From positions 124,001-188,000 of the forward strand of contig PHAB01000002.1 in the NCBI GenBank assembly GCA_002840275.1: a stretch of 64,000 nt of DNA. The letters run 5' to 3'. The notes under the pieces were generated by a model. That model worked only from the letters and a program-made list of their open reading frames with translations, was not told where the DNA came from and made no database searches. The translations under genes and the position numbers were made by a program. Shown here piece after piece: positions 33,076-38,180 of the stretch. Source of the stretch: Firmicutes bacterium HGW-Firmicutes-14. GTDB lineage: Bacteria; Bacillota; Thermincolia; Thermincolales; UBA2595. The number at the start of each line of letters is the position of its first letter. Position 1 is the first letter of the stretch.

Positions 33076-33183
33076 ATGTTTTTCCATTATTCTGGTTTTG
33101 ATAGTATTTTCTGGCAGGAATTCGCAAGCAAAAGTAGAATAAAATATTTCAGAAACCGATGAAGATTGGGGAGGATTGCTGGA

Positions 33184-34044
33184 ATGGGACTAAAGGAAAA
33201 ACTGGGCAAACAATTTATTATCACCACAGAACTGGGACCCACTGACGGGACAGATGTGCAGACAACCCTTGAAAAAGCAAGGAGTTATATCAAACTGGAC
33301 GGTATCAATATCCACGACTGCCCGATGGCCAGACTGAGGATCAATTCCATAGCGCTGGCCCATATTGTGCAGTCTGAATTAGGTATTGATACAATTCCCC
33401 ATTTTACCTGCCGTGACCGGAGTCTCCTGGGCACCCAGGCAGACCTTTTGGGGGCCCATGCCCTGGGTATCCGGTTTCTCCTGCCGACCACGGGTGACCC
33501 CCCGAACCACGGACCTTTCCCGTCAAGTGCCGTATATGACCTGAATACCCTTTCCCTTATAAGCCTTATTAAAAAGATGAATCAGGGGCAAGATGCGGCA
33601 AACAAGGAATTCAAGGGTCCGACAGACTTTATGGTCAGCGGTACGACCAGCACCTCAGCGGCTAACATGGGGGCTGTATACAGCAGGGTAAAGCGAAAGA
33701 TAGACGCCGGAGTTGATTTCTTTCAGACCCAGCCCTGTTACGATGCAGAAAAAGCCCTTGCTTTTGCAGAAAAGATGAAGGATTTCGGAAAGCCCGTGAT
33801 TATGGGAATGATGCCGTTAAAAAGCGTGAAAATGGCTGAATATATGAATGACAGTGTGGAAGGGATTGAAATCCCTGAAGAGGTATTGGCCAAAATAAGG
33901 GAGGGTGTCCCGGGAGCCAGGATTGCCTGTGAATTTGTTGACAAAGTATATAAACATATAGACGGAATCCATATTATGGCCATGGGTGATGTTAAGGCTT
34001 CTAATGAAATCATAGAACATACCCTCAGCCTGATAGGAGCCTGA
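33184..34044 (+). CDS. Methylenetetrahydrofolate reductase (MetF-like)
   Basis: 286 residues from an ATG at 33184 just after GGGGAGGATTGCTGGA. Beta/alpha barrel motifs of the MTHFR family: FIITTELGPTDGTDV at the N-terminus (catalytic Glu), IPHFTCRDRS, LLPTTGDPPNHG (the family GDxP loop), FFQTQPCYD (the FQTQ motif) and PVIMGMMPLKS. Reduces 5,10-methylene-THF to 5-methyl-THF for methionine or the methyl branch of the Wood-Ljungdahl pathway. No metV or other Wood-Ljungdahl gene is adjacent, so which role applies is open. Confidence 0.9.
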   Translation: MGLKEKLGKQFIITTELGPTDGTDVQTTLEKARSYIKLDGINIHDCPMARLRINSIALAHIVQSELGIDTIPHFTCRDRSLLGTQADLLGAHALGIRFLLPTTGDPPNHGPFPSSAVYDLNTLSLISLIKKMNQGQDAANKEFKGPTDFMVSGTTSTSAANMGAVYSRVKRKIDAGVDFFQTQPCYDAEKALAFAEKMKDFGKPVIMGMMPLKSVKMAEYMNDSVEGIEIPEEVLAKIREGVPGARIACEFVDKVYKHIDGIHIMAMGDVKASNEIIEHTLSLIGA

Positions 34045-34424: not shown

Positions 34425-34880
34425 GTGAGAGTAAATGTAAAAGCCCTGATATTTGTTATAGTAATACTGGCAGTCGGTATCATTTTTGTAATACCTTACC
34501 TGAATCCGGGGCCGGGGGAATTATCCGGCAACGGTGGACGGGAGTTTTCGCTAACCACACAGCCGGCCGAGAAACTGCAGGAGGCCAAGGCAGCAGGACG
34601 TCCTGTATTCCTCGAATTTTATGCTGCCACATGACCGGCATGCCGTGAAATGGAGCCGGTGGTGCTGGCCCTGGAAGAGAAGTATGAAAAAGATGTGGAA
34701 TTTATAATTGCCGATACAAATAGTCAAGAGGGCAGAAGGCTGGGAGGGGAGTTTGACATCTACTACATTCCCGCCATCTTTATATTAGGCGGTGATGGGG
34801 AAGTCAGGTATTCCGAAGAAGGGGTCCGGCCCCTCTCTGAACTTGATGCAGAGTTATCTGAGGTTACCGGTGGGAAGTGA
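34425..34880 (+). CDS. Candidate selenocysteine thioredoxin-like membrane-anchored protein (UGA at codon 70)
   Basis: The frame from GTG 34425 (RBS AGAGGGG, 7 nt) runs through an in-frame TGA at 34632-34634 to a TGA at 34878-34880: 151 codons. N-terminal anchor ALIFVIVILAVGIIFVIP, then a complete thioredoxin fold: AAGRPVFLEFYAAT-U-PACREMEPVV, FIIADT, FDIYYIPAIFILGGDGEV with cis-Pro at P116. TGA stands exactly where the first cysteine of CxxC belongs, giving U70-P-A-C73. A stem-loop fit for a bacterial SECIS lies 25 nt past it. CcdA, which feeds electrons to such proteins, follows with overlap. Alternative: a TGC/TGT-to-TGA mutation that made a pseudogene. The intact remainder argues against long decay. 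Confidence 0.72.
34655..34669 (+). promoter_or_regulatory. Candidate bacterial SECIS stem-loop
   Basis: GCCGG, loop TGGTG, CTGGC (one G-U pair), with the loop starting 25 nt after the TGA and a G in its first two positions, as expected for SelB binding. The flanking GG and CC can extend the stem past one mismatch. An alternative pairing of 34635-34639 with 34655-34659 exists. Drawn by eye, not folded. Confidence 0.45.
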
Positions 34881-35595
34881 GATCAATACCGTGTTTGAGA
34901 ATTTTATCGACACCATATTGCCCCGGGCTGTCGGTAGTTTCAGCCCTGTAACATTTATAATTGTATATATTGGCGGGGTGCTTACCAGCATAAGCCCCTG
35001 TATCCTGACAATGGTTCCGGTTATTGTAGGGTATATCGGCGGGTATGGAGAACAGGATAACAACAACTCTCGCCTAAAGGGCTTTGCCATGTCATCTGTT
35101 TTTGTCCTGGGGATGTCCGTGACTTTTTCAGCATTCGGTATAATTGCCGTGACCCTGGGCCGGATTGTGGGGCAGGCCGGGGTAATCTGGTATTACATAC
35201 TTGCTGCAATAGCTATCATTATGGGTCTCCAGCTTCTCGGGGTGCTTAATATCAGATTCCCCACCCTAAACAGGCTTCCTGCCGGGAAAGGGGGGCTGGT
35301 TCCTGCGTTTCTCATCGGACTTGCGTTTGGACTGGTGGCATCACCATGTGCCACTCCGGTGCTGGCTGTTATTATTACCTATGTTGCTTCAACGGGCAGT
35401 TTCTATTATGGTGCCGCCCTTCTTTTTGTTTACGGCCTGGGGCACGGGCTTCCCCTGATTGCTGCCGGAACCTTTACGGCAGTTATCAAACAGCTTCCCA
35501 GGTTTCAGAAGTATTCCCGCTATATAACCTCAGCCAGTGGTGTCATATTGATACTCCTTGGATTGTATTTTCTCGCCTCTGTAAGGTTATTTTAA
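34870..35595 (+). CDS. ccdA: CcdA-type cytochrome c biogenesis/thiol-disulphide transporter
   Basis: About 241 residues from GTG 34870 (GAGG six nt upstream; overlaps the thioredoxin stop by 11 nt). GTG 34891 is an alternative start. Six membrane helices with the CcdA/DsbD cysteines in SPCILTMVPVIVGYIGGYGE (first half) and ASPCATPVLAVIITYVA (second half). It moves reducing power from cytoplasmic thioredoxin across the membrane to an extracytoplasmic thioredoxin-like partner, here most likely the product encoded just upstream. Ends in FLASVRLF. Confidence 0.9.
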   Translation: MGSEINTVFENFIDTILPRAVGSFSPVTFIIVYIGGVLTSISPCILTMVPVIVGYIGGYGEQDNNNSRLKGFAMSSVFVLGMSVTFSAFGIIAVTLGRIVGQAGVIWYYILAAIAIIMGLQLLGVLNIRFPTLNRLPAGKGGLVPAFLIGLAFGLVASPCATPVLAVIITYVASTGSFYYGAALLFVYGLGHGLPLIAAGTFTAVIKQLPRFQKYSRYITSASGVILILLGLYFLASVRLF

Positions 35596-35689: not shown

Positions 35690-36382
35690 GTGAAATTATT
35701 TAAGGTGAGCGGGAAAAAAATCATTGCGGGGATCGGCATCCTGCTGTTGTTGGGGGTGACTGCGGGTTGCAGCGAGTCACAGAACCTTTCCTGGGAACAG
35801 CTTAAAAAAACTCATTACAAAATGGTAACAGGAAAATCCCCGGACACAAAGAATAAGGCTGCAGATAAAGAGGGACAAGCTGCATCAGGGGATGAAGACA
35901 CCACAGGGGAAATCCGGGGACAGGGCAATACAGAAACAGCCCAAGCCCAGGAAACCCAGGGGGAAAAGGTAACCCTGGCCCTCTGTTTTGCTGACCAGAA
36001 CGGGGATTACCTGACGATTGAACAGAGGGAAATAGCCCTTGTTCCGGGTCTGGCCCGGGCAGCTGTAAATGAGCTTATCAGGGGTCCGGAAGGGAAGGGG
36101 TTATCAACGACCATACCCGAGGGCACCAGGCTGCTGGATATTAACATAGACAACGGACTCTGTACAGTTGACTTCAGCAGTGAATTCAGGGAAAATCACT
36201 GGGGCGGCTCCAGTGGAGAGATACTGACAGTTTATTCGGTTGTCAATACCCTGACCCAGTTCGCGACGGTTGAAAAAGTTGAAATCCTGGTTGAAGGCCA
36301 AAGGATTGAAACCCTGGCCGGACATATGGACCTGACAGTTCCGGTATACCGTAATACACAAATCATCAGAGACACAGAGTAA
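35690..36382 (+). CDS. GerMN-domain lipoprotein
   Basis: 230 residues from a GTG. Signal and lipobox TAGC (C27), a 60-residue Gln/Asp/Glu-rich linker, then a GerMN domain: VTLALCFADQNGDYLTIEQRE, AAVNELIRGPEGKGLSTTIP, EGTRLLDINIDNGLCTVDFS, and VEILVEGQRIETLAGHMDL. GerMN proteins include GerM of sporulation and germination, and other surface lipoproteins. Its ribosome site lies inside the inverted repeat just described. The neighbouring amidase also acts on peptidoglycan. Confidence 0.88.
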   Translation: MKLFKVSGKKIIAGIGILLLLGVTAGCSESQNLSWEQLKKTHYKMVTGKSPDTKNKAADKEGQAASGDEDTTGEIRGQGNTETAQAQETQGEKVTLALCFADQNGDYLTIEQREIALVPGLARAAVNELIRGPEGKGLSTTIPEGTRLLDINIDNGLCTVDFSSEFRENHWGGSSGEILTVYSVVNTLTQFATVEKVEILVEGQRIETLAGHMDLTVPVYRNTQIIRDTE

Positions 36383-36418
36383 ATACTGCTCATTATTAAC
36401 TAAGAAAGACATACAGGG

Positions 36419-36468
36419 GCGGTTGATGAATCCTGACGGAAGGCGCCGGGACATCGACCGCTTTTTTT
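36419..36468 (+). terminator. Terminator after the GerMN gene
   Basis: GCGGTTGATG (36419-36428) pairs with CATCGACCGC (36452-36461; one G-U) and is followed by seven T residues. Loop is long (23 nt). Confidence 0.7.
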
Positions 36469-36602
36469 CCAGTTTTTTGCATAATTTTCCGCGGGGAAGG
36501 AAGGAATTTCGACAATTATGTCGAACCTTACAGACAGGCGGCATTTCTAAAATTTAGTAACTCAGGAATGCCTTGCAGTTTTAGGGAAAGGGGGTGGCAC
36601 AA

Positions 36603-38180
36603 TTGTCGGGTAAAAAAAGGAAAACAAATTTCTTGGCAGGTTTTTTGACAACCCTGTTTTTCCTGGGAATATCCCTGTTTTTTGCTGGAACTGCCCTGGC
36701 CGCAACAGACAACTATACCGGTTCTGCTGTGGAAGGTAAAACTGTTGTTGTAAACGCTCCCACAGCCAACATCAGGAGCAGTTCAACCCTTGGCGGCAAA
36801 AAGGTTGAGACAGTGGCCAGAGGCCGTGAACTTAAAGTAACCGGCGAATCCAGGGGATGGTACCGGGTCAGCCTTGCCGGTGGACAAGAAGGCTGGGTTG
36901 CGGGATGGCTGGTAAGGGAAATAATGGATTCTTCCAGCGGCGGTGATTCAGAGACCCAGTTTGAACCTGTTGCCGGAATGTTCCTGGTTATCAAAGAGAG
37001 CAGTGTGAATATCCGTTCCGGTGCAGGCACTACTTATGATATTATAGGAAAGGCTAAAGCAGGAGACTTGTATGATATTACGGGTAAGGCTGGGGAATGG
37101 TACAAAATTGCTCTCCCGGACCGCAGTCCCGGGTGGATTGCCGGATGGCTGGCCGAGGTCAGGGCTGTTAGTTCACCGTCAAGAGATGACCCACCGGATA
37201 TCCCCCCGGACACCGGATCAGATTCCGGAGATTCCGGGTCAGGTTCCGAACCCGGCAGTGAAGATGAGGATTCCCAGTCCTCCGTCAAACTTGTTAATAT
37301 CGAATTCAGGAACGGGGACAACAACGAAGAGAAACTGGTTATCAAGAGTGAAGGTGGAATTGAGTACACAAAATTTAGGCTTAAAGGACCTGAGAGGTTT
37401 GTAATCGACATCCGGAATGCAGATATCAATGGATTAAAGGACTTTTCTCCGGACAGCAGATTTGTCAGCAGGGTCAGGATGGCCCAGTTCAGCCTGACAC
37501 CCATGACCGTGAGAATTGTGCTTGACCTGAAAGAAATTACGGGTTGTTCCACAGTTCTGGATGATACGGGTGAGGTCCTGACTGTTACCTTATCAGAACC
37601 GTCTATTGGCGGCAAGGTTATTGTGATTGATGCCGGCCATGGTGGTTATGACCCGGGAGCCATAGGGGTCACGGGCCTGGAAGAAAAAGAGTTTAACCTG
37701 GAGACAGCACTGCTGGTAGAGCAAAAACTAACCGAACTCGGGGCTACAGTCATACTTACCAGGAAGAATGACAGCTTTGTCAGTCTTACAGGGCGGGCAG
37801 ATATAGCCAACAAAGCGGAGGCCGACGTCTTTGTAAGCATACATGCCAATTCTACGGAGAGGTCGTCAAAGAAGGGTACTTCGACATATTATTACGCCCC
37901 CGCATCGGACCCGCTCCTTTATGCCCAGGCAGAACAGAGGAAATCTCTGGCTGGGGCGGTCCAGGAGAATCTGATTGGGCAGCTGGGAACAACGAACCTG
38001 GGTACACTTCAGGCCAATTTTGCGGTGCTGAGATGTACTGAAATGCCTTCAATCTTAGTGGAATCCGCATTTCTGTCCAACCGGGAGGATGAAGCATTAT
38101 TGAAAGACCCGGGCTTCCGTGAAAAGGTGGCTCAGGGCATTGCCGACGGGTTGGTTGAATACTTTACTATGGGTTATTAA
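36603..38180 (+). CDS. N-acetylmuramoyl-L-alanine amidase with two SH3 domains and AMIN domain
   Basis: About 525 residues from TTG 36603 (GGGGG 8 nt upstream). Order: signal peptide (FLAGFLTTLFFLGISLFFAG), SH3b 1 (TANIRSSSTLGGKKVETVAR to GWVAGWLV), SH3b 2 (SVNIRSGAGTTYDIIGKAKA to GWIAGWLAE), acidic Ser/Asp/Pro linker, AMIN domain (VKLVNIEFRNGD to LDLKEITG) and C-terminal Amidase_3 (VIVIDAGHGGYDPGAIG, LTRKNDSF, VFVSIHANST, ESAFLSNREDE). Zinc ligands H, E, H and catalytic E are in place. Cleaves the lactyl-peptide bond of peptidoglycan, in cell separation, sporulation or lysis. Confidence 0.93.
   Translation: MSGKKRKTNFLAGFLTTLFFLGISLFFAGTALAATDNYTGSAVEGKTVVVNAPTANIRSSSTLGGKKVETVARGRELKVTGESRGWYRVSLAGGQEGWVAGWLVREIMDSSSGGDSETQFEPVAGMFLVIKESSVNIRSGAGTTYDIIGKAKAGDLYDITGKAGEWYKIALPDRSPGWIAGWLAEVRAVSSPSRDDPPDIPPDTGSDSGDSGSGSEPGSEDEDSQSSVKLVNIEFRNGDNNEEKLVIKSEGGIEYTKFRLKGPERFVIDIRNADINGLKDFSPDSRFVSRVRMAQFSLTPMTVRIVLDLKEITGCSTVLDDTGEVLTVTLSEPSIGGKVIVIDAGHGGYDPGAIGVTGLEEKEFNLETALLVEQKLTELGATVILTRKNDSFVSLTGRADIANKAEADVFVSIHANSTERSSKKGTSTYYYAPASDPLLYAQAEQRKSLAGAVQENLIGQLGTTNLGTLQANFAVLRCTEMPSILVESAFLSNREDEALLKDPGFREKVAQGIADGLVEYFTMGY

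Follow-up and report, generated by a model that had tools for sequence, protein, structure and literature searches.

A probable membrane-anchored selenocysteine thioredoxin encoded next to ccdA in Firmicutes bacterium HGW-Firmicutes-14 and its relatives

Several thioredoxins act on the outer side of the cytoplasmic membrane. ResA consists of one anchor helix and an extracytoplasmic thioredoxin domain, takes its electrons from CcdA and serves cytochrome c maturation. StoA, a thioredoxin of the spore cortex, is likewise anchored and CcdA-dependent. Selenocysteine can also be part of such redox centers. Thioredoxins with a UxxC motif (PF00085) and selenocysteine-containing thiol:disulfide interchange proteins are already listed in two inventories (PMC13188914; PMC1794560), and a thioredoxin is among the selenoproteins given there for Carboxydothermus (PMC1794560).

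The gene described here is located in a stretch of 64,000 nucleotides of Firmicutes bacterium HGW-Firmicutes-14 (contig PHAB01000002.1, positions 124,001 to 188,000 of the forward strand), hereafter the window, in whose numbering all positions without a contig name are given. Its product has the thioredoxin domain, the UxxC motif and the bacterial SECIS in common with the selenocysteine thioredoxins of PMC13188914 and PMC1794560. What sets the window form apart is its membrane anchor and its pairing with CcdA, which becomes a fusion in some relatives. The features are as follows.

34425..34880, + strand: probable selenoprotein gene, membrane-anchored thioredoxin with a U-P-A-C active site; 151 residues, GTG start, TGA stop
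34437..34502, + strand: predicted N-terminal membrane helix, residues 5-26; AlphaFold helix, hydrophobic sequence, kept in relatives
34632..34634, + strand: TGA read as probable selenocysteine, residue 70, first position of CxxC; the same column holds TGA in 35/59 and Cys in 24/59 relatives
34641..34643, + strand: resolving cysteine C73, invariant in the alignment
34652..34672, + strand: bacterial SECIS-like hairpin, loop GGU at 34661-34663; alignment columns 21-41 from the TGA
34770..34772, + strand: cis-proline P116, invariant in the alignment
34891..35595, + strand: CcdA (DsbD-type transmembrane domain), probable electron donor; 234 aa from the likely GTG start, PF02683 at 104 bits

The window protein resembles several described families. 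With the predicted selenocysteine thiol:disulfide interchange family (PF13098, WP_011366075.1), a likeness drawn by description, it shares the UxxC motif and the thioredoxin-like character, and it scores 30 bits against this profile (cut-off 27). The layout of anchor and thioredoxin domain is that of ResA. The sequence match is weak, nonetheless, with selenocysteine in place of the first cysteine and 35.2 bits against an NCBIfam cut-off of 170. The NCBIfam scores also stay below the cut-offs for StoA (17.8 bits against 210) and SaoT (15.8 bits against 65). TsoB (NF045694), a selenoprotein resembling a rhodanese/DsbD fusion, has selenocysteine in a DsbD-type system as well, and the window proteins match its thioredoxin and transmembrane parts; however, they reach 27.8 and 105 bits against 805, lack the rhodanese domain and follow another domain order. 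Since all these scores are far under the NCBIfam cut-offs, the window protein was not filed under ResA, StoA, SaoT or TsoB.

The original prediction, made from the letters of the window, described a candidate selenoprotein encoded by a single frame, intact except for one TGA where the CxxC motif should begin, with C73, the cis-proline P116 and a membrane anchor. All of these elements were recovered. The TGA at 34632-34634 is codon 70, sits directly before P-A-C73 and is the sole internal stop before the terminal TGA at 34878-34880. The GTG start at 34425 is preceded by a stretch resembling a ribosome-binding site (GGAGAGGGG). With the TGA read as a residue, the protein reaches 46 bits with the Pfam Thioredoxin profile (PF00085, cut-off 23.5); it also matches the Redoxin profile. 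An AlphaFold model, for which two sequences were the input, runs from a transmembrane helix (residues 5-26) over a loose linker to a confidently modeled thioredoxin domain. The closest solved folds to this model are ordinary thioredoxins, and their list also includes the DsbD C-terminal domain and a ResA-type protein. The PF00085 match, C73, P116 and the model thus place the protein in the thioredoxin superfamily, as judged by [C/U]xxC and the cis-proline.

The TGA is widespread among relatives. A first protein search covering 41 genomes returned 13 further genomes with one TGA within a good match. From a later profile search of 398 sampled genomes of the phylum, 59 full-length rows were extracted and aligned. 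TGA is found in 35 of them and Cys in 24, always in one column, and no row has another stop in frame. The TGA form occurs in the window genome and 33 other sampled genomes, and 34 other rows share the column; this recurrence indicates that the TGA of the window copy is more than chance. Every TGA-form genome has selB (34/34), compared with 266 of 398 (67%) overall (Fisher p=5e-7, which overstates independence as the rows are related). In a tree of the rows, the window copy falls inside an all-TGA group of seven (97/99), and at least five changes between Sec and Cys are needed. The Cys paralogue on contig C26 of the host falls in another group, which includes two members of the same taxonomic family (genomes G001 and G002) with TGA, so Sec and Cys have been exchanged between near relatives. 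The alignment proposed with the original prediction therefore came out in its favor, with Cys at position 70 in 24 relatives and TGA kept in both close and distant ones. The opposite outcome, close relatives with TGC or TGT and further disabling mutations in the window copy, did not occur.

The host is equipped to insert selenocysteine. Its genome (3.65 Mb, 99.96% complete) has, all above the model cut-offs, a tRNA-Sec (75 bits; anticodon tca according to ARAGORN), selA, selB and two selD genes (L049 on contig C15 and L050 on contig C4). Both selD genes carry an in-frame TGA as well, in a U-x-x-K context, by which they appear to encode selenoproteins themselves. UGA decoding is thus evidently in use elsewhere in this genome. 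A genome without sel genes or tRNA-Sec had been named as evidence against the prediction, and the full set is present.

A stem-loop fitting a bacterial SECIS, with its loop starting 25 nt downstream, had also been claimed. The hairpin is real, and the measured loop start is 26 nt after the UGA. According to PMC13188914, bacterial SECIS elements have a loop of 3-9 nt with a G among its first two positions, a stem of 4-16 bp, a distance of 16-37 nt from UGA to loop and an energy no higher than -7.5 kcal/mol. All of this holds for the window hairpin (upper stem of 6 bp, loop GGU, -10.8 kcal/mol), which has one A.C mismatch in the lower stem. Of the 35 TGA forms, 30 pass this rule, compared with 1 of the 24 Cys forms and 83 of 490 positions taken from these genes as controls. 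The five failing TGA forms miss the energy limit by 0.1-0.5 kcal/mol, and three of the passing rows have another best-scoring hairpin, which lies a few bases upstream. Across 34 sequences, related to one another, 88.7% of the stem cells are paired, more than in every shuffled and slid version, and both sides are altered in three of the six stem pairs. Codon choice in the stem is also biased, although the rows are related: Glu77 is GAG in 25/26 TGA forms (128/350 Glu codons elsewhere in the same genes), and the Ala codon of the other arm is GCT in 22/25 (111/447 elsewhere). To judge from these synonymous codons, constraint on the protein alone is no explanation. Scanned against Rfam at gathering scores, the window yielded tRNAs only, a result of no weight against a SECIS.

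CcdA is present downstream, as the original prediction had it. Its likely start is the GTG at 34891, which is 10 nt past the thioredoxin stop and aligned with the starts in relatives; the start at 34792 in the list of open reading frames would make it overlap the thioredoxin gene. A profile search of the flanking stretch found a CcdA domain in 49 of the 59 rows and none in the examined stretch of the other 10. In 43 rows, a separate ccdA frame follows directly, and in one genome (G041) it lies upstream. Five rows carry both domains in one frame of 377-421 residues with the TGA inside (L120 in G097, L125 in G349, L128 in G189, L138 in G128 and L146 in G056), possibly selenocysteine-containing fusions in a single chain. 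The coupling of thioredoxin and CcdA is common, not universal. Gene order, together with the single-frame fusions in other genomes, makes a working link between the two proteins probable.

One of the separate downstream frames, L121 of genome G237, breaks after about 148 residues of CcdA and continues as an Lgt-like sequence in another frame, which looks like either a rearrangement or an assembly fault. The break was considered as a second selenocysteine, in CcdA, and rejected, as the frame runs into this unrelated sequence.

Taken together, the window gene is best read as that of a selenoprotein, an anchored UxxC thioredoxin with a SelB-read UGA that is recharged by CcdA and reduces extracytoplasmic disulfides. 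We give this reading a probability of roughly 85%. It draws on the conserved TGA, the decoding genes, the SECIS-like hairpin largely missing from the Cys forms, the anchor helix and the ccdA coupling, all of them sequence evidence; which way the electrons flow and which clients are served is what we infer from it. SelB and Sec-tRNA would read the UGA as selenocysteine, guided by the hairpin on its 3' side. The single N-terminal helix would anchor the thioredoxin domain to the cytoplasmic membrane, on its outer side. CcdA would pass electrons across the membrane and reduce the Se-S bond of the thioredoxin, and the reduced selenol/thiol pair would then reduce disulfides of extracytoplasmic clients.

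The likeliest client in the host may be apocytochrome c (CxxCH) on its way to heme ligation by ResB/CcsA, a tentative assignment with odds a little short of even. The host has five ResB modules (L163, L165, L166, L167 and L168), most with a CcsA-like frame and four of them beside multiheme CxxCH frames; by these genes it is a cytochrome-rich organism. Only two CcdA proteins are encoded in the genome, and the second pairs with a Cys thioredoxin. With five ResB modules and two CcdA proteins, the window pair would be an obvious candidate for keeping apocytochrome c reduced. ResB is enriched in the TGA-form genomes (17 of 34) relative to the whole sample (110 of 398; p=0.003, independence again being overstated among related rows). 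Half of the TGA-form genomes are thus without ResB, so the clients probably differ or are broader in many species. A further point against a cytochrome client is that the window gene is not adjacent to any ResB module. A Redoxin search of the host genome for a competing ResA gave no match, yet the window gene, itself a Redoxin match, was also unlisted, and the result carries no weight. Separately, genome G190 has a ResB match that contains a single in-frame TGA (contig C3, 71917-72681).

Other explanations of the UGA have been considered. A fresh nonsense mutation, or a Cys codon misread as TGA in sequencing, would look alike, namely a single in-frame stop in a decaying or misread copy. The chance of this is negligible, as the same column holds TGA in 34 other rows from many families, the frame is otherwise intact, and the hairpin and its synonymous codons are conserved. 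The UGA might also be a true stop, with a product ending at residue 69 and ccdA translated alone. To our knowledge, selenocysteine insertion is never complete and UGA can terminate. Such a product would, however, be without most of the thioredoxin domain, yet the frame is conserved to the cis-proline and beyond, and five relatives have the TGA within a frame that also encodes CcdA. Termination as the gene's regular outcome is therefore highly improbable.

Granting a selenoprotein, its task could be another. Stress or metal(loid)-related thiols could be served rather than cytochromes. Indeed, the Cys thioredoxin-CcdA pair of the host (L054, contig C26, 5175-6333) adjoins an ArsP-like permease and an ArsM-like methyltransferase, both recognized by eye, the window CcdA weakly matches the ArsG model (43 bits, cut-off 200), and the TGA-form genomes without ResB fit this option too. 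None of the genes seen beside the window copy is of this kind, and this task is considered unlikely. A spore-related job, like that of StoA and CcdA in Bacillus, would be to reduce a disulfide of some protein that takes part in cortex synthesis. Downstream of ccdA, the window (35690-38180) has genes for a GerM-domain lipoprotein and an SH3/AMIN/amidase protein, as do close relatives, the only ones in which the flanking order is kept. This neighborhood is confined to the same class, GerM and amidase domains occur in non-spore proteins too, and the StoA score is far too low, as given above, which makes a spore role the less likely of these two. On the other side of the thioredoxin gene, a methylenetetrahydrofolate reductase-like gene lies at 33166-34044.

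UxxC thioredoxins are known selenoproteins, and the membrane-anchored form coupled or fused to CcdA appears to be undescribed in the literature consulted. The passages on these proteins in PMC13188914 and PMC1794560 contain no mention of it, the word CcdA is absent from PMC13188914, and a literature search for selenoproteins with CcdA or cytochrome c biogenesis gave nothing relevant. A member of the family may already be catalogued as the plain thioredoxin of Carboxydothermus in PMC1794560.

The anchored, CcdA-recharged selenocysteine thioredoxin has several implications. Under the standard code, the window gene ends at residue 69, and there are at least 35 such genes in the sampled genomes. 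A wider proposal is more doubtful than the assignment of apocytochrome c as client in the host. The proteins could form a distinct selenocysteine subfamily of anaerobic Gram-positive-type bacteria, in which UxxC thioredoxin and CcdA make up one transmembrane path for reductant, sometimes in a single chain, that keeps multiheme apocytochromes c reduced in cytochrome-rich members. If so, selenium would be used in cytochrome c maturation. The window system would connect selenium with transmembrane thiol transfer. Moreover, Sec and Cys forms coexist in close relatives and share the CcdA partner, so that the family is a natural experiment on the benefit of selenocysteine to an extracytoplasmic thioredoxin.
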